Part shown: positions 1 through 37,378 of the stretch, one piece after another | How the letters are laid out: the number at the start of each line of letters is the position of its first letter | Numbering within the stretch: position 1 is the stretch's first letter | The notes under the pieces: model-generated | Databases searched by the model: none | Seen by the model: the letters and a program-made list of their open reading frames with translations, nothing else | Told to the model about the DNA's origin: nothing | DNA from: Rhynchonema sp. JSB1_4 | Taxonomy: Eukaryota > Nematoda > Chromadorea > Monhysterida > Xyalidae | Direction: 5' to 3' | Assembly (NCBI GenBank): GCA_030248065.1 | Contig: JASAMV010002878.1 | Span: 1 to 64,000, forward strand | DNA length: 64,000 bases | Translations under genes and position numbers: made by a program

Positions 1-927
1 TTTCGATTCACTGTTATTTGTCATGATGCAATAACATTCGTCGTTTTCATCGATGTCAACAACCGCATCATTCAAAAATTGGCACTCAGGTAGCGCTTCG
101 ATGCGATATACCATTCCAGCTCCATTCAAATTCGAAACATCAATTGGTTTTGTATCAACCACTTTCAATTTCACACGATGTTCGGTGTATGGCTCCAATT
201 CAATCGATTCAGCCAACTGCACGCTGCCAGTAAAGGCTCGTTTCGTAGCTGGACTCACTGATGCCACAAAGCCATAGTCTGCAGTCTTGAGTGCATCCGA
301 GTCCGGCGGTACACCACAAGTTTGTGTGCGCGGACAGATCACGTTCGCCCAAAGAGAACCAATTTCCATTGGCAAGGGTGGCGATACATGTTCAGCAAGC
401 GGCGCTGTGATTCCAACCAGTGGTTGCGTTCCATTGCCCAGCATCAGCTTGCCACCACCCTCTTCATGGGATCGACTATCCACAATGAATGGTAACCACT
501 GCATTCGATCTTGAACTTTGCAGGGTATCGAGACAACTTCATCCATGGGTATAGGTGCACCACCAAAGCATCTGACACACGGTGCATCATCAGGCAGCCG
601 TTCCAATCGCTGACCATTTTCACATTCCAACCACTCCACATTCATTTTTGGTATGATGTTGTATTGGGCTCCACTATCATGCATCGCACGATGCGGGATA
701 TCACACATATCAACGCGAATGTACGTGTGCGGATTGTGAATCTTTTTCGGTGGCGTCAATAATAAACACTCCTCATCTTTTACCACAGGCTTCCATTTCA
801 CATCCCATTCATATGACATTTCTTCTTGTGGCGTAGCTAATGATGATACGACTGGGCCGCGCCTACGCCGTCTACGCGCCAGTCGTTGCCAAAATCCTGT
901 TTGTTTCCACGTCCATGTTCCACACTT
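1..927 (-). CDS. LTR retrotransposon pol, retropepsin part (truncated by window edge)
   Basis: The minus strand is open from 927 to the left edge, in the -1 frame relative to the upstream gag and overlapping its last ~90 bases. The translation carries an aspartic-protease active-site motif, DSGAQ, encoded at about 667-678 and followed by a hydrophobic NIIPK stretch, as in retropepsins. Reverse transcriptase, RNase H and integrase would lie beyond base 1 and are not visible. The -1 relation suggests Gag-Pol synthesis by frameshifting, but I saw no textbook X-XXY-YYZ slippery heptamer. No stop codon interrupts the visible part. The superfamily (Gypsy, BEL or other) cannot be decided without the polymerase domain. 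Confidence 0.75.
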
Positions 928-3407
928 TCAATCGTCTTGTTGCAAACATAGAAGCACACACATGGTTTCGAGTGACACTTCGCTCCGCCACATGATCGAT
1001 ACACAGCATTACTTTGACCTTTGTTGCTGTTCTGTTTGTCTTGCTGCTGTTGGCTTGACGCGTTCGTTCGAGCGGCGTTCAATGCATCCTTTCGATCTTT
1101 ATTCAATTGTGGACAGAATGGCCGAATGTGACCCTGTTCACCACAGGCATAGCACACTCCAGGCTTGCGTGTCGTTCCGACTCCATTATTCGCATTTCCA
1201 CCACGTGCACTAGCTGATGCACCATGCTGTTGCGTGTTATTGGAACTTTGCATACGCGGCGGGTGCGGACATGATCGATAGATGTGTGTCGTTTCACCAC
1301 AGTTGAAGCACGCACGACTTCCATTCTGTCGTCCACCACGGCCGTAAGCACCACGATCAAACGTGCCACGTGAGGGTGCACTGCTGACTGGTTGCTTAGC
1401 CCGAGACTCCATAGACTCTGCAGCCAACAAATGTCGCACACGTCGAATCATAGCCTCTGAATTCTCTGGTTCAATTTCGTTTCGCACCAGATCAGAACGG
1501 AAACGTTGGGGCAATCCCTGCCACAATGCATTCGCAACATAACGTTGTCGTTCATCTGAATGCTTTCCATATTCACCTTTGTTAGCCAACGTCATTGTGC
1601 GCTCAACAAAGCGATCAAATGTTTCACTGGTCTCATTCCATTTGTGTTCTTGCAGTTCAAATCGTGCCAGCGTCTTCGATTGATCACCACCTGTGATCTG
1701 CTTCATTGCATGCTTGACACGAGCAAACGAGCTCTTGACTTCCGGTGTCAGCAGATTGTAGTATTGTTTCAACTCGCTGTCGAAGAAGTGCGAGACGAAA
1801 CAAGCCCGTTCATTCTCCTTTCGAATTCCAAATATCGCAAATTCCTCCTCCATTTCAGCAATGAACGAGTACCACGGACGCTTATCAGTCAGTCCTGTGT
1901 AGCGTCGGGTGCCACGCTTCATAGCCTTTTGTGCCATAGAAGCCAATTGTTCACGTCGCGGTTGATCGATTTCATCCACCAGACAAGGACTGACATCACA
2001 ACCAAATGATGCATCAATAACCGATGGGGATTGATGTTGCACCCCAGGTCGCTGTCCCATACTACCCGGCACAAATTCTGCAGCATCAACATTGTACGGC
2101 TGTATCTGATCGAATCCAGGCACTTGCGGTGCATTCCAGTCACCATGATTGCTGTTGGTACCGTGCAGGCCATTACCGTATCCCATTTGAGGTGAAACAT
2201 CACCAAACACATTCTGCTGTTGCTGCACACCAACGCTAGTAGTGCCCAATGATGGTCCAACAGGACACAGCTGCTGCTGGCCACGAGCTGGTGTAGCACC
2301 CAAGATCGGTGGATGATGACAACTTTGCTGTCCATGTTCCAATACCACACTATTTTGTCGCTGCGACTCCTTTTCGATCTCACGCTGCATCAACTGCTGC
2401 TTTAGGGCACGCAATTCAGCTTGATATTTGTCCATTTCAGCTTTCTGTCGCTCCAAATACATTTTCATTTCAGCTTGATGTCGCTCATTATCAGCAGCAC
2501 ATTTTCGTTCCAGCAGAGCGCAGTGCGTTTGAAACATCTGCCGCTCCAATGCCAGTTGCTGATATGTCGGGGTCATAGCCGGGGTCGACTTTTTATTTTT
2601 GTTCATGTCATATCCAATAATCGGTGTGTCTGGCTCTTGATCGCCAAATCCAACTGTTTCCGATCGTTCACCAACTTTTCTTGATGTTTCAGGCACCTTC
2701 AGTGCGGTCGAGTGTGATTTGACACTTTCCGGACTCAATGCAGCATGTAGCTCCTCACTCGGCATCACGCGCGGCTGCGATTTCGATCGAGCACCGGCCT
2801 TGCCCTTCACCGTTATTGGTTCAAACGGGTTCAATTTGGCAAATTCCCTGGCCGCTTCCGTGCTTCCAGCAACCATCGATGCGATTTCAGCCTCGTTTTG
2901 CAAAGTCCGACCACTCCGAAGTGTCTGTCGCGTCACACGAACGGCACCACCAAAGTCACCTTTGTGCGTTGGCTGGCTATTTTCAGACACAAATATCGAA
3001 TCTCTCTCTTTTTGCTTCAGATCTTGCAATTCCTTGATCAAACTGTCCACTTCGGCATCAATTGACGAGTGTGGCAGGTCCTCGGCATCACCACTACTGT
3101 CATTCGACATGTATGGTTTGCCAAAGTGCTCGTCCTGGGCCGCCACACCATCAAAATTACGATGCGACACTGCATCGCCACTTTGCGGCAGCATTCCAAG
3201 TCGCTCCTGCCTCAGCAACACACATTCAGCCTCATCATGAGCGCTGTTGCATCGCCGGCACCATTTCTTGCTCTTCTCTCCATTCGGCTCCTTCGCAACT
3301 TCGCCACTTTTCTTCTTCTTTCCTTCCATTTGCTCCATGGATCTGTCTTTGCTCAGACCAGACCACTTTTCTTCTTTCTTCTCAGTCTCACACTCCAATA
3401 TCGCCAA
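837..3407 (-). CDS. LTR retrotransposon Gag polyprotein
   Basis: An uninterrupted 856-residue frame. It has a charged, low-complexity N-terminus, then a Glu/Lys/Gln-rich probable coiled coil at about residues 285-345, a Gln/Pro-rich stretch, and a conserved block at about 490-660 that looks like the retrotransposon gag capsid region. Two CCHC zinc knuckles follow near residues 700 and 750: C-FN-C-GETT-H-IYRS-C and C-YA-C-GEQG-H-IRPF-C. This order (capsid, then two knuckles, then a protease frame) is typical of LTR-element Gag, which packages element RNA in cytoplasmic particles. A further Cys cluster lies at the C-terminus. The intact frame implies a fairly young copy. The downstream pol frame overlaps its 3' end in -1. 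Confidence 0.85.
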   Translation of the reverse strand: MAILECETEKKEEKWSGLSKDRSMEQMEGKKKKSGEVAKEPNGEKSKKWCRRCNSAHDEAECVLLRQERLGMLPQSGDAVSHRNFDGVAAQDEHFGKPYMSNDSSGDAEDLPHSSIDAEVDSLIKELQDLKQKERDSIFVSENSQPTHKGDFGGAVRVTRQTLRSGRTLQNEAEIASMVAGSTEAAREFAKLNPFEPITVKGKAGARSKSQPRVMPSEELHAALSPESVKSHSTALKVPETSRKVGERSETVGFGDQEPDTPIIGYDMNKNKKSTPAMTPTYQQLALERQMFQTHCALLERKCAADNERHQAEMKMYLERQKAEMDKYQAELRALKQQLMQREIEKESQRQNSVVLEHGQQSCHHPPILGATPARGQQQLCPVGPSLGTTSVGVQQQQNVFGDVSPQMGYGNGLHGTNSNHGDWNAPQVPGFDQIQPYNVDAAEFVPGSMGQRPGVQHQSPSVIDASFGCDVSPCLVDEIDQPRREQLASMAQKAMKRGTRRYTGLTDKRPWYSFIAEMEEEFAIFGIRKENERACFVSHFFDSELKQYYNLLTPEVKSSFARVKHAMKQITGGDQSKTLARFELQEHKWNETSETFDRFVERTMTLANKGEYGKHSDERQRYVANALWQGLPQRFRSDLVRNEIEPENSEAMIRRVRHLLAAESMESRAKQPVSSAPSRGTFDRGAYGRGGRQNGSRACFNCGETTHIYRSCPHPPRMQSSNNTQQHGASASARGGNANNGVGTTRKPGVCYACGEQGHIRPFCPQLNKDRKDALNAARTNASSQQQQDKQNSNKGQSNAVYRSCGGAKCHSKPCVCFYVCNKTIESVEHGRGNKQDFGNDWRVDGVGAAQSYHH

Positions 3408-3990
3408 TTGTCACTCCAACTCCACTCGATCGCTTCAAAAATCGAATTGTTGCTGTCGTCCGCCAACGACAAGCAACGCCAATTTCAAGCGAAATGCGAC
3501 GCGACGAGCTAAATGTGAAAACAAGACCGGGGCCGGGCCCGGTTTATCGAATACGGGGGAAAATGAAAAAATAGCACTCTGGAAACTAACCAAACAAACC
3601 TTGCTCGTGATTTTCCAATTCAATCACGAGGTGGGACCTCCAAATGTTGCGCGGTCCTTGGGCGGATAGTGATTGATTGCGTATTTCGATGTGAATGTTT
3701 TGGTTTGCCTAATTTCTGCCAATGCGGCCCTTTTTGGTCCCGAATAAAACACGGTCAAGTGGTATTTGACACGGTTTTACCAACAAAACACGGGCACTCA
3801 GCTCACTTCCAGGCAAAATATTAACAAACGGCACAGAAACAGTCACGAAAACTGCAAATCAAATCACCAAAATCCAAATCCCAGAAAACGAAAAACTCAA
3901 TTGTCATGAAAAAAACGAATTAGAAGAGAATCAATGGGCCAACTCCATGCGGCAATTTCATATGCGATAATCACACTGTAACAAGTATCT
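3408..3990 (-). other. Region 5' of gag, possible leader/LTR, not delimited
   Basis: About 580 bases upstream of the gag start on the minus strand with no convincing gene. By position it should hold the untranslated leader, primer-binding site and 5' LTR of the retrotransposon. I could not define LTR ends, because the second LTR lies outside the window and no TG...CA pair could be verified. Confidence 0.3.
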
Positions 3991-4362: not shown

Positions 4363-7310
4363 ATGGGTGGCAATTCGTTGACTGACCCAAACACACAATG
4401 TTGCGGCCGAGATTGGTGTGTACGAGATGGATGTGGTATTGCGTGCACCGTCATCACCTGGTTGTTGTTGTTTTATGGCGAATTCTGCGTTGTGACAATA
4501 ATGGTGAGTAGAGTAGTTATTTCGGATAGGTAAAAAAACATGTACCGTCAGCACTGTAGTGGCTGGGGGATTCCCCCCTTAGGGGTATCGAGTCAACCCT
4601 TAGGGGGCGATGGGGGGAAGGGTATCTATCTCGAGCCGAGCCCAAACGGTATTTCGAGTAAGTTGATTTATGCTTTTCAAAGGCAAAAACAGGTGTTTTC
4701 GACCTCGGAACCCGCGCGCAGACACCCAAAAATGGTCATTTTAGGCCAATTTTCGGCAAAAATGTCAAAAAGTACCCATTTTTAGGCAAATTTTGCAATA
4801 GTCAACGTCTGTGGACCAGTGTAGTTCCTGGTCCGGCGGGGAAATTAGTGTACCTCCCTACTTTTTCGGAGGGGAAATTAGTGTACCTCCCTGGGGGGGA
4901 AGACCCAAAATCAAGAAAAAGTCACTTTTTGAGGTTGAAAATTTGACCTATTTTTACCCCTTTTTGGAAAAAATTCTTCATAAAAAAGGTATTTTGGCGA
5001 CTTTTGAGAACATTGACCTGAAAATCACACATTTTAGGCCTAAAATGCCCATTTTAGGCCTAAAAATGGCCATCCTAGGCAAAAATTGGGGAAATTAGTG
5101 TACCCGGAGCCCGGAGGGGAAATTGGTGTACTGGTGTACCTTGGTCGGGGAAATTAGTGTACCTTAGGGGGGTCCCCCTCCCCCCCAGGAACTACACTGC
5201 TGTGGACCAGTGTTGGAGGCAGTGTTGGAGGTACTCTGGAGGGGGGATACCTACTGTACCGCGCTCGGAGAGGGGGGATACCTACTGTACCAGAGCCGAT
5301 GGCCTGTGGGGTTATGTACCTAGGGGGGTTTGGGGGGGTTAGGTTTTGGGGTGAAAATTTTTTATGTATTTATTATGTGTGGAATCGTGGGAAAACGTAG
5401 TATTTGCGCGCGTAGCGTGCGAATTTGGGGGTAATTTGAGGTAAAAACCACTGATTTTACACTAATTTTGGCCATTTTGGTCAAAAATTGGCACTTTTGA
5501 GGCAAAATCGGGGGGATACCTGCTGGACCCGGGGTGAAAATCGGGGGGATACCTACTGTACCATGCCAAACATCGGGGGGATACCTACTGTACCAGGCGA
5601 GGGGGGATACCTACTGTACTGGGGGGGGGCCCCCCCAAACCCCCCCCCACCTCCAACACTGCTGTGGATCACCGGACAACCCCCATTTAATTAATTTTGG
5701 TTTTCGTACTTTGCGCTCTTACAAACTATTTACAAAAAAATTGATCGGCAGATTTAGGTTTTGCCGGACACCGACTATCCTATACACCAGACGCTCAACG
5801 GCGTTCTGTTCCATTTGTTGTTCGTTTTGGCATTTGCCAGTCACTGGAAGACAATGCTGACGGACCCGGGCGCCGTGCCGAAAGGCAATGCAACAGACGA
5901 ATACATTCAGAGACTCGGCCTGAAACAGGGAGAAGTGAGTGCTTGTGTTTGATTTCAAAACTTTATATTTCGGTATTCAAGAACATTCAGCCATGCAGTG
6001 GTCATGTCTCTCTCACTCTCGTGGCTCTGATTTCCATTAACGATGTTCAGAGGTCTTCTGATGCCCCTGATTTTGGACCGGCAGAAAAAGTTGATTATTA
6101 TACAGTTGGAACAACTGCTCGCTGGTCCAAATTTGTAAACAGAGTAAAGTGCATTTGCATAAGCATAGTTAAATTGCGTTTTGCAAAAAGTCGCTATGTG
6201 CGGGATCACGCGGCAAGACTATACTGTCATAAAGAACCGTTTTTTATTTTTCGTGGAAAAAAACGGTTTTTTTCGAAAAAAACCGTTTTTTTCCAAATAT
6301 TTTTCCAGTACTTTAAGAACGTGATTTCGAAAAATATAACAATTTCAGTGTAAAATTTGTTCGAAGTGACGAAGGTGTTCTTGAAGAGTGTTGAAGTCAG
6401 TCGAAAACACTTGGTTTACACGCTTTTTGGCCCATTTTGGGTCGGTTAATTTTCGTACTCGAGCCAATTATTCACCAAAATCGAAAAGCTCATCAGTTTT
6501 GCATTACAATTTTTTGGCAAAACTGCAATAAAGTACCGATATTTTTTCGATCAAAAACCGAAAAGGTACCCACGAAAAAATAAATGGAAAACTATTCGGG
6601 TCTCGGAAAAAAACGGTTTTTTTCTGTGTTTTTTTTTCGGAAAAACCGGTTTTTTTCGCCTGCCAGTATAGGCAAGACCTCAGTGTGTTTGACAGCTGCC
6701 TCAAGTTGCAGGTTGTGTACAAATGCTCGAAATGTGCCAGCATCAAACCCCAACGCGCACACCACTGCTCCGTCTGTCAACGTTGTATTCGCAAAATGGA
6801 CCATCATTGTCCGTGGGTCAACAATTGTGTGGGCGAACGCAATCAGAAATTCTTCGTCTTATTCACGCTCTATATCGCGTTGTTGTCGACGCACGCGTTC
6901 TACTGGGGTGTCTGGCAATTTACGCTCTGCGTCGGTAATGACTGGCAACGGTGCAGGTGCGTGGAATATTGTTTATCCTTATTTTTGTCCGATTCCATCC
7001 CTTTTTCAACCCTCAATTTCACCATTCCAGCACATTCTCCCCACCGGCGACCACGATTCTGCTCATATTTCTGTTATTCGAATCTCTGCTGTTCTCAATC
7101 TTTACGTATGTGATGTTCGGCACACAAATTCACGCCATCTACACCGATGAGACGGGTATTGAACAACTGAAACAGGAACAGCCGACTTGGCAGAGGCATG
7201 ATCGATGGAAATCGCTGCAAGTCGTGTGCGGAGGGAAATTCTCGGTCGATTGGCTAAACCCATTTGTTATGCCCTACATTGGCAAGAGACACTTTGAGTA
7301 CTCGGTGTGA
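4363..7310 (+). CDS. ZDHHC3: DHHC palmitoyltransferase, ZDHHC3/ZDHHC7 type
   Basis: Protein S-acyltransferase of the Golgi type. Exons: 4363-4503, 5758-5934, 6712-6956, 7031-7310, giving 280 residues; phases agree at every join. Exon 1 encodes [13 protein letters not shown], the conserved start of TM1. Exon 2 carries TM2 and the [11 protein letters not shown] motif (about residues 82-92). Exon 3 encodes the Cys-rich domain with KCxxC, HHCSVC and the catalytic D-H-H-C at about residues 136-139, then TM3. Exon 4 carries TM4 and the conserved [16 protein letters not shown] segment. It follows the vertebrate ZDHHC3/7 pattern nearly end to end, including length. The start at 4363 is the first in-frame ATG before RDGCG; a further upstream exon is possible. 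Introns 1 and 2 and the 3' flank contain hAT-like MITEs. The C-terminus ends EYSV, a possible PDZ ligand. The 3-versus-7 split is not resolved; the symbol names the subfamily. Confidence 0.93.
4817..5199. mobile_element. hAT-like MITE in ZDHHC intron 1 (first of two)
   Basis: A perfect 15-bp terminal inverted repeat: CAGTGTAGTTCCTGG at 4817-4831 and its complement at 5185-5199. It is flanked on both sides by CTGTGGAC (4809-4816 and 5200-5207), an 8-bp target duplication as expected of hAT transposons, whose ends often begin CAGTG. The interior has no transposase and contains several copies of a GGGGAAATTAGTGTACCT unit, so the element is non-autonomous. Confidence 0.85.
5208..5661. mobile_element. 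hAT-like MITE in ZDHHC intron 1 (second, abutting)
   Basis: It starts directly after the right target duplication of the preceding element. The left end CAGTGTTGGAGG (5208-5219, repeated once more at 5220-5231) is the complement of CCTCCAACACTG at 5650-5661. The flanks are CTGTGGAC (5200-5207) and CTGTGGAT (5662-5669), a 7/8 target duplication shared with its neighbour. The interior is built of GGGGGATACCTACTGTACC units. No coding capacity. Confidence 0.8.
6220..6670. mobile_element. hAT-like MITE in ZDHHC intron 2
   Basis: The ends are TATACTGTCA (6220-6229) and TGCCAGTATA (6661-6670), inverted with one mismatch. Both flanks carry the 8-bp duplication GGCAAGAC (6212-6219 and 6671-6678). Near each end are GGAAAAAAACGG/CCGTTTTTTTCC hairpin blocks also found in the element at 16830-17226. 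The right end lies only about 40 bases from the exon 3 acceptor. Confidence 0.88.
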
Positions 7311-14781: not shown

Positions 14782-17700
14782 TCATAGCCTGGCCAAAATA
14801 TTCAATAAACCAGCCTGATAGTCCGGCATCTGACTGGCATAACCGGATCCGTATCCGTACGCATAACCGCCTTGGCCAGCAGCCCCCATTCCCGAATCCG
14901 GCCCACCGCCGTAAAAGTCAGCCGAACTGATGGAGGATGCACCATCGAACTTGGCCAGTGTCGTACGGGTTTCGAACTGGAAACCACTATGTGTTCTATT
15001 TGTAAAACACAAGGATAGAATTTTTCGTATTGGCATTGGTCAAGCAATGCTTGGCATGAACTATATTCCGAGATTTACTGACAACCGTTGCAGGTTGTTC
15101 CCAGATACAATAACAATAATAAAAGTTTCATGCTTTCGAAACTAGTGGCACCAGTAAAACACGAGGTCACGTGACCAAGGCACCAAGATTCGATCACCAA
15201 GTCGCCAAGTATCCTACCACTCGGGATCGGTGTTTCCCCCAAGTTTAGTGGGGCATGATTGACAAGATCTTTCAAATCTGAATGACTTACATCAGTGCTT
15301 CGTTCACCGAAGTACATGTCCGACGATATGGCTTTGGCGTTGCCGAATTTCTTGAGCGCGTCGTCGCTGGCCGGTGCCGAGTCACTCGACGACCCTCCGC
15401 CGCCCAGTTTCATCGCTCGACCGTTGTTTGGCGTGTTGCGCGTGCTGAAATAGTTGACACTGAATGGAGATAAGATCAAAAAAATTAAAAAAAAAGTATA
15501 CAAACGCACTCGTCTCTCGTGTCAACCACCGCATCCCAACTATCAAATCCACCCGTTTCCCTGGCCGATCGCGACGAGCTGTAGCCGTAGTCATCATCGC
15601 GACTGCAAATCAACAAGATGAATATTTGTGATTCAAATGATGTGGTGCCCTCGGTTGCGAACAACAAAAACGAACGACCTACCCCCTGCTGAGTGGTTCG
15701 GTGTTGACCATTTCCCATTCATCCTTAGCATCATAAAACGTGTCTGCTGCGTCCCGGTCGCGTTGCTGGAATGCTTTCGGATACGCCGGCACTTTCGATC
15801 GCACACCCTCCTGTTGGATTATTGAGATGCCACTCGCCACACTGTGTGACTTGGCTGACGTCGATCTGAACAGAGATTCAACGATCATTTGTGATCGTTT
15901 GTATCACCACAATGGAAGAATCTAAGCAACACAATCCAGAATTTATTCGCCTACAGTTCAACCAGACGATAATGAAAATGCTTGTCTGGTTCTGTTGAAT
16001 AACAAGGCACTTGTTGTGTTGGGCAACAAGTGGTTCAGATATTCACTATTCAGCGAAATACATATGTCTGTGCTGGGTACTGGATCCAGTCGCGAATGGA
16101 ATCTGGCTGTTTCAAAAATTGCAAACAGTTGCGGCTTTTTCCGAGACACATGGCGTAATCAGGAGAAATCATTTGACACCGGTGCACGCAAAACCACGAG
16201 TGAACAATGTTTCCTGAACAATGTTACACACTTTGCACCCACAAATCCCATGCCCAAACGTTCGGCCTGTTGTTGTTTGTTGGCATCGGCGTGTTTCAAT
16301 TTCGCGTCCTGTTTCATTCGTTGTTCGCTCACTTCCTGCACCATCAATCGTTCCGAGAGCCTGTCAAAGGGAAAGTACAGAAAACTGGTTAAAAGCTAGT
16401 TGCAAAATATAATTTCATAACTAAATCGAGACTCACTTGGTCACTTCTGGTTCTTCGGGTGCCTTTGGTTCCTCAAACGTCAGTCTAGCTTGTTGTTCGA
16501 TACGCTCTTTTTCGATGTTTTCCGCTTTTTGTTCGATTTCCTCAAAGTTCGTCTTCACCTTCTGGGCGCCCATGCCGCCAAATTTCTTCGCGCCCATCTG
16601 TAAATTGGATAGTGAAATATTTCGTGTCAATTTAACTGAAATTCCTCAATAATTCTGATCATGACAATAACTTACGCCGCCTTTCTTTGCCGCTGGTTTG
16701 CGTCCACCAATTGTTGTAGTCTTGGTAGGTTTGTGCACTGGATCAGCTGGCACTGCTTCAAGGTTGACGTTCGGGCCTGCAAGTAGTTTTTGATATAGTA
16801 CGTTACCAGCAGTGCCTTGTACTTTTAAATATACTTGCGGGCCGGGAAAAAACCGTTTTTTTTCGAAAAAAAAACCGAAAAAAACCGTTTTTTTCCGAGG
16901 CCCGGAAAAATACGTTTTTATTTTTCCGGAAATTTTTCCAAGTAGCAACTTTTGGAAAAAACGGTTTTTTTCCAAAAATTTCCGAGATATTTTCAAGGGT
17001 TGCGAAAGGATGTTGTCAAAACCAATGTAAATCGGTGCTAAACAGCTCAAAATGAGCACTTTTTAATCTCCAAGTGCATTTTTAGCCCGTTTCAGGCCAT
17101 TTCCAGACAAAATTTTCTCCAAAATAGGCGTTTTTGGACCGTGGGTATCCTTAAGTACTGGAAAAATATTTGGAAAAAAACGGTTTTTTTCCAAAAATAT
17201 ATTTTGCGGAAAAATACGCAAGTATACTTTTAAATACTGAAATTCGTTTTAAATTTAACCAAATGTTTAAAAATGAAATAACCGTCACCTTTCTCCACTC
17301 CATTCTGTTCATCCTCGTGTCCGCCAATGAACGCAGCTGACGAAATGCTGGCCGACGACTGGTTATGTGGCATTGATGTTTCTCTGAAAAATTACACCAA
17401 ATTCATAGATGGCCATAAAGAGATAAAACACGCGCATGAACATTATAGTATTTTGCGGCATGGTATAGTACATACGTCTTGTCAGGGCTGGTGTGTTCGG
17501 CAAAAAAATCGACGTCGTCCTGGCCGGTCGGAGACAAGGAGCTGCTGTCGATGATCAGCTGAAAATGGTGATGCGCAAATGAATTCGATGTTGTTGCTGC
17601 CCAACTTCGCATTTCGCATCTAACCTTATTGTTTCCCTTTACCCCAATGTTGATACTATTTGGGAAACAGCTGTGAGTGACGTAGAACCAAGAATTATCG

Positions 17701-34081: not shown

Positions 34082-37000
34082 ATGCCCCGACCACGCGTCC
34101 TTGTGGCCATGTCACTTGTGTTGCTGTTGGCAATGCAGATGACGTGGTGCACCACAGCAACGAAAAATACCGAATCAGAGCCCGAAAAACCAGCCACGAA
34201 AACGTTGGATACTGAATGCTTGCAAGACCAGAAAGCAAACGAAACACGACTGTTCAAAGAGAAAAAGTGCTACGTTGGAGTCCAAATCAGCGAAGACTTC
34301 GAATCGGCCAAGGACTACTGCCAACAACTGCTGGCGACCGAGCATTTTGATGGAGGGACCCTGGCCTCAATGGAATTTGCATCCATCGAACAACTGGAGA
34401 GCACCATTCTCGACATTGTTAGTTTAATTGTGACGTTTCAGGATCTTAATATAATTGAAGTCTAATACCTACAATGTACCTTGGTCCTTGATCACGCAGG
34501 GCCTGAGCTGCGGCCCCGAGTACTGGGTGGGTGGCTGGGTGCCGGAGAACGACCGCGGTTACGGTAACAAACCGTGGATTCACAAAAACAAATTCAAATG
34601 GATCGCCGAGGCTGACAAACCAATCGACAGTGACAGCCCGTTGTGGAAGGCGAAAGATGAACCTGGACGTGAGAGAGCTTGGAAAACCAAACAAATAAAA
34701 TTACATTCTATTTCATCATATGATTGCAGCCAACATTCAACCCAACCAAAACAGTCACGACTCATTCTGTGTGCTGGCCGATTGTCCGGGCTTGTGGGAC
34801 CGATCGTGCCACGAACAGCATCACTTCATTTGTGAACAGAAGGTGAAAGGTACGTACCAATACAAATGGATTATTGGTGGGTTTTTATACGACGACGACG
34901 AATTTTCCCTTCTTGATCACTCAAATCCAAACATTCATCACGTTCCTTCCCATCCCAACTACTAGTTACAGTAACCCCAACCGAACTCGTCTGCTGATTC
35001 TACCCAGAACATCACTAACCCACAAAGATTCCACGACAACAAAAGAATAAATTGATTGCGAACAATTCGTGAATGACAGTGGATGTTCGCCCTTTCTACA
35101 GCCGGACCAAAAGACTACAACAGCACCATGGCAAGATGTAAACAGTCCAGCTGAACACAGCCGTGTTGGCCTCTCGAGCAACCTTGGTCGCCCAGAACTT
35201 TGAAGCTTCGAGGCAACTTGGAGTGGAGTGACGGGAGCTCACAGATCGAACATAAGAGATCGCCCAATGGACCAAGATCTACTGGGGTCGACTCGATCTG
35301 GCGCTAAGTGAAATTCAGTGATATTATTTGCTTTATTTTGCCTAGCCCAGATTTGTTAGTCGTTCGGTGATACTGTGATATTCTCAGTGATCCCGTTTGA
35401 TGATTTATTCTAATTGAAACGCCCAGAATTTAAAAAAAAAAAAAATGGATTATTGATCAAAACTGGATTATTCCACCAATTCATCAATTGTTTTCTGCAG
35501 ACGAATACCTCAAGGCCCTGATCACTGTCTCCAAAGCTCCATCCAACCAATCAGAAGTCGCCACCGCTGAACCTGCGGATGGTCCTGAGTCGAAAGCCCC
35601 GCCCCAGGGTTGGAAAAAAAAATTTTTTTTTTAAACAAGTTTTTTTTTTTAAAAAAAAAATTTTTTTTTAAAAAAAAATTTTTTTTTAAAAGTCTGAGAT
35701 ACGGGGAAATTTTACCAAATTTGCCCAAAAAACGCGCAAAATCGCGAAAAAATGCAACTTTAATTGACAAGTCACTTTTGTGACTTGGTTTGCATCACTT
35801 ATCAAGGGTGTTTACGTCATTTAGGTGCGATCCAACAGTCTGTGCTTGTTATGGACCTATGATTGCTGCTCTGTGGTATCGGACACAACAGTTTGTGGCC
35901 GAATAAGCAAGATTCACTCATAAACCACACAGAATTGAGAATATAAGCTGCAGAAATACTTGTCGGGTAGCTGAATCAGTCGTATATGACCGACCTGATG
36001 GGGTATGACATCGAAGAACCATGTAGGTACATGCATACTGTGTCTCAGGTATCACGGGAAGGTATAATAACATCATTTGGGGTATCTTAGGTACCAAATA
36101 CATGCCCCAAAGGTGATTTTGTGAAGAAAATTTTTCGACCCTTGAGAAAAAATGACAAAAAATTACCCCCGAAAAGGCCATTTTTGGACGTTTTGGAACA
36201 TTTTGTTCCCCCGAAAATTTTTAAAAAAAAAATTTTTTTTTAAAAAAAAAATTTTTCAAAAACCTTTTTTTTTTAAAAAAAAAAATTTTTTTTTAAAAAA
36301 ATAAAAAATTTTTTTTTTTTGGCCCAACCAAGCCCCGCCCCCAGCCTCCGAAGCTCCACATTCTGTTCCTGAAGTCCCGCCCTCTGATTCTCAAGCTCCT
36401 CCCGTTGCTTCTGAAAGTGCACCTTCTGCGTCCGAAGCTTCGCCCACTGCTTCTGACGGAACTTCTGCGTCCGAAACACCGCCGATCCAATCGAAACTTT
36501 CACAGCGTCAATCCGTGACTCCACCTGACCAAACCAAAGCACCATCCACCCAAAGCGCTTCGGCTGCCACAGTCGGCTTCAAAACGAACAAGGTTGCAGA
36601 ATCGGCCAAGACAAAGGGGCAACGTAAAGGGACTGAAAGGCAGCGTACTGCTCACGGTTGGTTAGAATCTCGGGTTCCTCCAGTGAAGACCAATTGTTTC
36701 TTCAGTCTCACGCTTCAGCTGCATCTTCCAAATCCAAACACGCGCATTCAACCAACGCTCCGCACGGATTTATCAAGCAACATGGTGGTGGTGGTAGTCG
36801 TCAAAAGTTAATGTTTGGAGTTGGCGGTCAAGGTGACTGTAACTGGATGGGTTGCTGAATGAACACCTATCAACGAATGAAACATCATCACTCGTGCAGG
36901 TGCCACATCGCAAACAAAGCCGAAAACAATGGGATCAACAATTTCGACAGCTCCAGCCAACAGTCCTGCTGGCGGCAAGAACCAGAAGCCCAAGTCGGCC

Positions 37001-37378
37001 TGGGATTTGCGATGGCTGATCGTCATTGCCGCCTTGATCGGTGGGCAGAAAGAACTTGATTGTTTTTTACTTTCTCTGATGTCTCAATCCATTTTGCGTT
37101 TGCATGTGCCAGGCGCGGTGGTGTGTTTCGTCATGTGGGTGATTGTGGGCGTGACCATCTATCGAGGCGAGGAGCACGACCAGCTGGACGCCGAGGCAAA
37201 GTCGGTGATGCGCGAAGTGAACGAAATGAAAGAGAAACGACGAAAGGAAAGGAAGAGAAAAGGAAAAAATGGGTAGGTCTTCTGTCCAGCGTTGGGAAGT
37301 TGGAAACTATCTGGATATATTTCCGTTTCCAGTTCCCAGCAAAGTTTCTGGCAACGATTGACGTCGCGCAGACGCTGA
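34082..37378 (+). CDS. Membrane-anchored C-type lectin domain protein with low-complexity stalk
   Basis: Proposed exons: 34082-34417, 34500-34668, 34730-34849, 35501-35608, 36333-36623, 36719-36850, 36900-37040, 37113-37272, 37333-37378 (500 residues, all phases fit). Signal peptide 1-23 (LVAMSLVLLLAMQMTWC); one C-type lectin domain at about 42-208 with KKCYVGVQ, YWVGGW, W-rich strands, CVLADCPGLWDRSC and HHFICE. The EPN-type Ca/sugar motif reads EPG, so sugar binding is uncertain. A Pro/Ser/Glu/Ala-rich stalk (residues ~210-415) leads to a TM helix at about 421-447 (WLIVIAALIGAVVCFVMWVI) and a Lys/Arg-rich tail. The intron at 36624-36718 is the least certain (alternatives exist near 36590-36710). 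The last exons could instead be a separate short membrane-protein gene starting at ATG 36929. The intron 35609-36332 is a transposon. Confidence 0.75.
35608..36329. mobile_element. DNA transposon acting as an intron in the lectin stalk exon
   Basis: The ends GGTTGG and CCAACC are inverted, each followed inward by long A/T homopolymer hairpins (35613-35690 and 36220-36320). AAGCCCCGCCCC stands on both sides (35594-35605 and 36330-36341), extending to ...CAG with one C length difference. No transposase. The left end supplies the donor (G|GTTGG), and the AG inside the right copy of the direct repeat serves as acceptor (AAG|CC), after a T-rich tract; the joined reading frame is preserved. Confidence 0.75.

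Follow-up and report, generated by a model that had tools for sequence, protein, structure and literature searches.

A hAT-type MITE in the stalk exon of a predicted nematode lectin-like gene as a possible newly made intron

Can a DNA transposon that has landed in a coding exon be removed from the transcript as an intron, and, if so, does it belong to a family specialised for this behaviour? The question is raised by a predicted gene of Rhynchonema sp. JSB1_4, located in the first 64,000 nucleotides of contig JASAMV010002878.1 (assembly GCA_030248065.1), the whole of which is hereafter called the window. A sequence-only reading had proposed that an introner-type element interrupts this gene and that its target duplication supplies the acceptor. 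Joining of the eight exons in our gene model (Table 1) yielded an open frame whose product has a signal-peptide-like start and continues with a lectin-like domain and a stalk of repeats, followed by a transmembrane segment and a tail of basic residues; the host gene is predicted to encode a membrane-anchored, C-type-lectin-like protein. The lectin-like domain aligned to Pfam Lectin_C over profile positions 5–107 of 107 with an E-value of 0.0016 and 19.6 bits against a cut-off of 22.6, and a Pfam scan of the full-length protein returned 0 families. No protein homologue of the lectin model was found at E 0.01 among the 8000 candidates scored or at E 0.1 among the 43 candidates of a second search, and the PDB contained no sequence match to it. 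Because no homologue was found, the gene model stands on this analysis alone; the intron at 36645–36718 has a poor donor. The intron at 34850–35500 contains a SINE-like retroposon of about 560 bp (34876–35442) that ends in poly(A) and is flanked by the direct repeat AAATGGATTATT. This retroposon was present at 39 other places among the matches listed (best 40 of 173 candidates), the top ones being 99–100% identical, and all five of the other copies inspected had the same tail and flanking repeats of their own; without it, the intron would shrink to about 70 nt.

Table 1. Exons of the lectin-like gene model, inserted element and candidate splice features, in window coordinates
Feature	Position	Strand	Description	Basis
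Exon 1, lectin-like gene	34082..34417	+	signal-peptide-like start; lectin-like domain begins	gene model; Lectin_C E=0.0016, below Pfam cut-off
Exon 2	34500..34668	+	lectin-like domain	gene model
Exon 3	34730..34849	+	end of lectin-like domain	gene model
Exon 4	35501..35608	+	stalk start, 108 nt up to candidate donor; last 4 nt are element	gene model
Left target site duplication	35597..35604	+	8 bp, CCCCGCCC	comparison with 51 copies
hAT-type MITE (non-autonomous DNA transposon)	35605..36332	+	728 bp, CAGGGTTGG...CCAACCAAG	genomic-copy alignment
Candidate intron A	35609..36332	+	724 nt, GTTGGA ... CCAACCAAG; QAPP added	joined-exon translation
Candidate intron B	35609..36344	+	736 nt, GTTGGA ... 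CCCCCAG; protein length unchanged, one P-to-Q change	joined-exon translation
In-frame TAA on element retention	35632..35634	+	protein ends after 252 residues	translation
AAG in place of the family's terminal CTG	36330..36332	+	candidate acceptor AG	51-copy comparison, genome pattern counts
Right target site duplication	36333..36340	+	8 bp, CCCCGCCC	comparison with 51 copies
Exon 5	36333..36644	+	remaining stalk, 7-residue repeats	gene model
Exon 6	36719..36832	+		gene model; preceding donor 36645 is the weakest call
Exon 7	36900..37040	+	transmembrane segment begins	gene model; hydropathy 3.07, 19 residues from residue 423
Exon 8	37113..37276	+	transmembrane remainder, basic tail, stop	gene model

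We confirmed that a DNA element is inserted in the stalk coding exon, between the coding sequences for ESKAPP and PASEAPH. Removal of the element together with one copy of its duplication restored the seven-residue register (PESKAPP/PASEAPH/SVPEVPP/SDSQAPP); as judged from the sequence, the insertion broke up the stalk repeat array. A search of the same assembly found neither an empty allele nor a near-identical paralogue of the insertion flanks. The sequence-only reading had described inverted ends containing GGTTGG and CCAACC and a direct 12-base repeat, and both features are present, the repeat (AAGCCCCGCCCC) lying at 35594–35605 and at 36330–36341. It had taken them to mean a 722-bp element with a 12-bp target duplication. 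The insertion itself stands, but this length and duplication size were ruled out by the other copies, which have 8-bp duplications and CAGGG/CCCTG ends; on the basis of the ends seen in those copies, the element was set at 728 bp with an 8-bp duplication. The 12-base repeat thus consists of CCCCGCCC, a shared C and AAG. A third copy of this repeat family, 83% identical, lies at 36372 inside the stalk repeats.

A search of the assembly (204 Mb, 5747 contigs) for the element, as the earlier reading had proposed, revealed a high-copy family. The similarity search recovered 40 full or near-full copies among the matches listed (best 40 of 2223 first-look candidates; window copy included), and the other genomic copies were mostly 91–98% identical to the window MITE. 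The exact 27-bp left end occurred 141 times in the genome, and the right end T8NGSCCAACCCTG occurred 976 times, a count that may take in relatives sharing the same end; the control pattern gave 0 occurrences in each case. With the same element at many other places in the genome, the insertion of a repeated element is far beyond chance. No second copy was found inside the 64-kb window.

To characterise the family we used 60 element loci, 30 picked by similarity to the window copy (itself included) and 30 by the exact left end. Both ends were located in 56 rows (L044, L056, L057 and L065 were left out), which reduced to 51 distinct copies because five rows were the same place twice. Selection by similarity or exact end biases this survey to young copies; since the right end was located as CCAACCCTG with at most two mismatches, copies with more altered right ends would fall among the dropped loci. 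The family has inverted ends starting with CAGGG (consensus CAGGGTTGG/CCAACCCTG), and CAGGGT was present at the left end of 50 of the 51 copies. The 8-bp target duplication was perfect in 48 of 51, including the window copy, and represented 46 distinct sites; the other three showed a missing left flank, a one-base shift and a mismatch, respectively. The closest relatives of the window copy among those scored (98% identical; best 40 of 2223 candidates) were two oppositely oriented copies on the same contig, separated by about 3.6 kb (L002 and L003, G000:C4034). As their target duplications are identical, this pair probably arose by inverted duplication.

Elements of the hAT superfamily have the terminal motif CA(A/G)NG, and hAT-derived MITEs are short, high-copy elements with CAGGG/CCCTG ends and an 8-bp duplication. 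The window MITE resembles them in all of these properties, and its ends and duplication size place it, as a sequence-based assignment, in the hAT superfamily. It differs from hAT-derived MITEs in general by having A9/T9 arrays in both subterminal regions, and no matching autonomous element was found at 20 hAT loci. The genome contains at least 150 matches to the hAT dimerisation domain (PF05699); none of the 20 loci, within about 1.5 kb on each side of the domain, had CAGGG[T/A]TGG or CCA[A/T]CCCTG ends or similarity to the element.

The window copy carried four substitutions that were private among the 51 aligned copies, none of them in the 517-bp interior and three in the last 12 bp. Going by this alignment, the insertion is very recent; for this reason the intact downstream frame is uninformative on splicing and was discounted as evidence for splicing or function. 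Two of the private substitutions changed the terminal CTG to AAG, creating the candidate acceptor AG. The AAG end was found only in the window copy, and the other 50 copies ended in CTG. The left flank at 35594–35596 also reads AAG before CCCCGCCC, matching the altered right end. In a simulation, at least three of four random substitutions fell within 12 bp of one end with a probability of 3.5e-5, a post-hoc figure; of the 12 private substitutions in L063, three likewise fell within the last 12 bp. The AAG probably derived from the flanking target, and repair that copied the left flank would account better than independent mutations for both the AAG and the clustering of substitutions. The AAG end may also be an error of assembly next to the A/T arrays, and the new AG may have arisen as a side effect of repair, without selection. 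As for the proposal that the target duplication supplies the acceptor, the AG belongs to the element's three terminal bases, which were altered, although these bases are probably of flanking-target origin. Genome-wide, six right ends fitted NAG (five CAG and the window AAG; a reversed control pattern matched once), as against 976 with CTG. The five CAG-ended places (C40:16284, C3834:13956, C4277:29113, C4809:7874 and C5120:2184 in G000), which are candidate acceptors in candidate copies only, could be further acceptors made by repair.

We then considered the splice signals. The GT that had been noticed in the left end of the element was found at position 35609, and this candidate donor (CAGG/GTTGGA) scored higher than the other four GTs found from 35501 to the in-frame stop. 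It scored −2.5, compared with −1.6, 1.1, 5.3, −7.0, 4.2 and 0.3 for the six other modelled donors, on a human matrix. GTTGGA is a poor donor, with T at +3 and G at +4, and ranks at the 79th percentile among all GTs on the plus strand of the window. On the acceptor side, the reported T12 tract was found at 36309–36320. Because the stretch from 36177 to 36330 is free of AG, the AG at 36331–36332 is the first after the poly-T tract; the next is at 36343–36344. The former is the AG that the sequence-only reading had placed inside the duplicated target, where it does not lie, since it belongs to the three bases that were replaced at the element's right end and adjoins the duplication. Its AAG context is weaker than CAG, the acceptor sequence of the six other model introns.

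The joint of candidate intron A, 35608/36333, would give ESKAPPQAPPPASEAPH, whereas that of candidate intron B, made via the AG at 36343–36344, would give ESKAPPQASEAPH and the original length. Joint A is in frame, as had been claimed, but the frame is not kept exactly, because 12 nt are added (four element nucleotides, CAGG, and the eight of CCCCGCCC) and with them QAPP. Frame retention was discounted as strong evidence for splicing, given a one-in-three chance that the frame would be kept at the first AG anyway. If the element were retained, the stop at 35632 would precede the membrane anchor. The RNA of the element and its duplications is predicted to fold with its two ends paired (−200 kcal/mol, z −5.8, with 0 of 20 shuffles equally stable); such a fold could aid ordinary splicing or make the transcript a target of SOS splicing.

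Our best explanation, to which we give a probability of about 0.5, starts with the insertion into the stalk exon of a hAT-type MITE, from a family that is large and has been active recently, with duplication of 8 bp. During this insertion or shortly afterwards, the right end of the element was altered from CTG to AAG, most probably through repair that used the left flank as template, where AAG precedes the same 8 bp. CAGG/GT of the left end would then serve as donor, and the acceptor, downstream of the poly-T tract, would be either the new AAG or a CAG of the exon itself that lies 12 nt beyond it. Because the long pairing ends would draw both splice sites together, the pre-mRNA would be spliced in frame, at least partly. 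The outcome would be a single new intron comparable to those made by maize Ds, with no specialised introner family involved. From these sequence features, the chance of partial or full GT–AG splicing of the window element is about one half. The intron reading is supported by the top GT before the stop being at the element's end, by both acceptors being in frame, by a downstream frame that reaches the transmembrane segment, and by the pairing of the ends in the RNA fold; it is weakened by the poor donor and by an AAG that is weaker than CAG, and in so young an insertion the intact downstream frame says nothing of function. A one-step version, in which repair overwrote the terminal CTG with exon bases from the flank and thereby made a 3' splice site, removed the transposon end and locked the intron, is a doubtful refinement.

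The same poor donor fits a plain disruption, in which the element is retained or transcription ends in it, and the protein is cut short at 252 residues by the stop at 35632. A secreted lectin without membrane anchor would result, or the mRNA would be degraded, and the allele may be rare or heterozygous. The in-frame TAA begins at base 28 of the element, an AATAAA seen by eye lies within it at 36300–36305, and the near lack of private substitutions leaves little time for selection, all in line with disruption; by contrast, the GT that scores best before the stop coincides with the end of the element, and the AG that comes first after the poly-T tract is in frame. We regard disruption as unlikely but worth keeping in mind. 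Donor strength would also suit skipping of an exon piece, in which the GTACGT donor at 34850, scoring 5.3 as against −2.5, is joined to the acceptor ending at 36332 or 36344, with loss of a 108-nt piece and the element. From the coordinates, 35501–35608 spans 108 nt, so that both junctions would be in phase and 36 residues would be lost. The acceptor at 35500, however, is a normal one, with CTGCAG and a T-rich tract, and skipping appears improbable.

The pairing ends also invite comparison with SOS splicing, in which CAAP1 is a factor. No match to CAAP1 was found in the genome, but the control genomes also gave no match, so its absence carries no weight. SOS splicing is reported to excise DNA transposons from the mRNAs of animals (Zhao et al. 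2026, reference 49 of PMC13247085). It acts on the hairpin of inverted ends, needs no GT–AG sites, and leaves the mRNA to be resealed by RTCB. Like such substrates, the window element is an exonic DNA transposon with long pairing inverted ends (z −5.8); unlike them, it has candidate GT–AG sites. As exact loss of 728 bp would leave eight extra nucleotides and shift the frame, we consider excision by this route quite improbable.

We next asked whether the window copy could be one of many gene introns made by a true introner family. In Gozashti et al. 2022 (PMC9860276), a family is defined by at least four similar introns, and introners are enriched in genes in 161 of 175 genomes; for Aureococcus introners, the legend of Fig. 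2F gives 4 bp of element plus the 8-bp duplication left behind, or +12 nt. Candidate intron A would follow the same arithmetic, adding four nucleotides of element and eight of duplication, that is, four amino acids. The CAGGGT left end in 50 of 51 copies and the presence of AG inside 16 of 46 target duplications would likewise suit an introner family. At 47 distinct empty sites (window included), kept after removing shared flanks and flanks shorter than 300 bp, the longest spanning open frame had a median of 102 codons, compared with 103 at 656 control positions. Frames of at least 100 codons spanned 57% of sites and 52% of controls, and those of at least 80 codons were slightly commoner at sites (77% vs 67%). 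Thus, these 47 sites and 656 controls gave no clear excess of spanning open frames that would indicate enrichment of the MITE in coding sequence, in a test that is a proxy for coding sequence in a sample of young copies and is compatible with a few exonic copies.

At the sequence level, only the window copy had GT and AG at the borders of a coding-exon insertion, making one candidate MITE intron in the copy sample. Because it ends in CTG, the canonical MITE has no acceptor of its own. Since open frames match controls and canonical right ends are CTG (976 vs 6 NAG), the claim of an introner-type family is not supported by these sequence data; the sampled family appears to behave as an ordinary MITE, and we think it very improbable that the window copy belongs to a true introner family. 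Compared with the introners of PMC9860276, the window MITE differs in lacking clear open-frame enrichment, in offering a single candidate, and in having canonical copies without AG. Pfam analysis of nine hand-picked spanning open frames gave one match above the cut-off. This was a GNAT domain in L054, and the matched part lies far on the downstream side of the insertion. As the MITE in L054 lies between a relic resembling a hAT transposase C-terminus (by eye) and the GNAT acetyltransferase exon, this copy was not counted as exonic.

Maize Ds, also a hAT element, is reportedly spliced as an intron when inserted in exons. The window element shares with Ds its hAT type, the 8-bp duplication, the exonic location and splice signals at or near the ends. 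It differs from Ds in host and element, in having its candidate AG within the altered last three bases, and in that splicing here is predicted. The closest precedent for our preferred reading is the splicing of a hAT element from an exon, as for maize Ds (Giroux et al. 1994, cited in PMC3443670). A literature search for introner, hAT and TSD combined as whole words, with plural forms outside its scope, returned no match. We consider the window locus a new, possible case of a known kind, introns made from transposons, in which the origin of the acceptor can be read unusually well. New introns are rarely caught with the donor element, the empty-site sequence and the acceptor change all readable. 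If spliced, this one would be an intron gain of nearly zero age that started from an ordinary MITE, and would suggest that one repair event, at a single end, can be enough to turn a transposon into an intron. If unspliced, the insertion is an unremarkable one for an exon, and warns against calling introners from one frame-keeping case.

Elsewhere in the window, the regions 6200–6700 and 16650–17060 have translations rich in residue runs, as seen by eye, which suggests that the genome holds more repeat families with A/T arrays. On the minus strand, the long open frames at 840–3410 and 1–927 encode two zinc knuckles of the CCHC type and a DSGA stretch like that of a protease; by eye, these frames resemble the gag region of an LTR retrotransposon.
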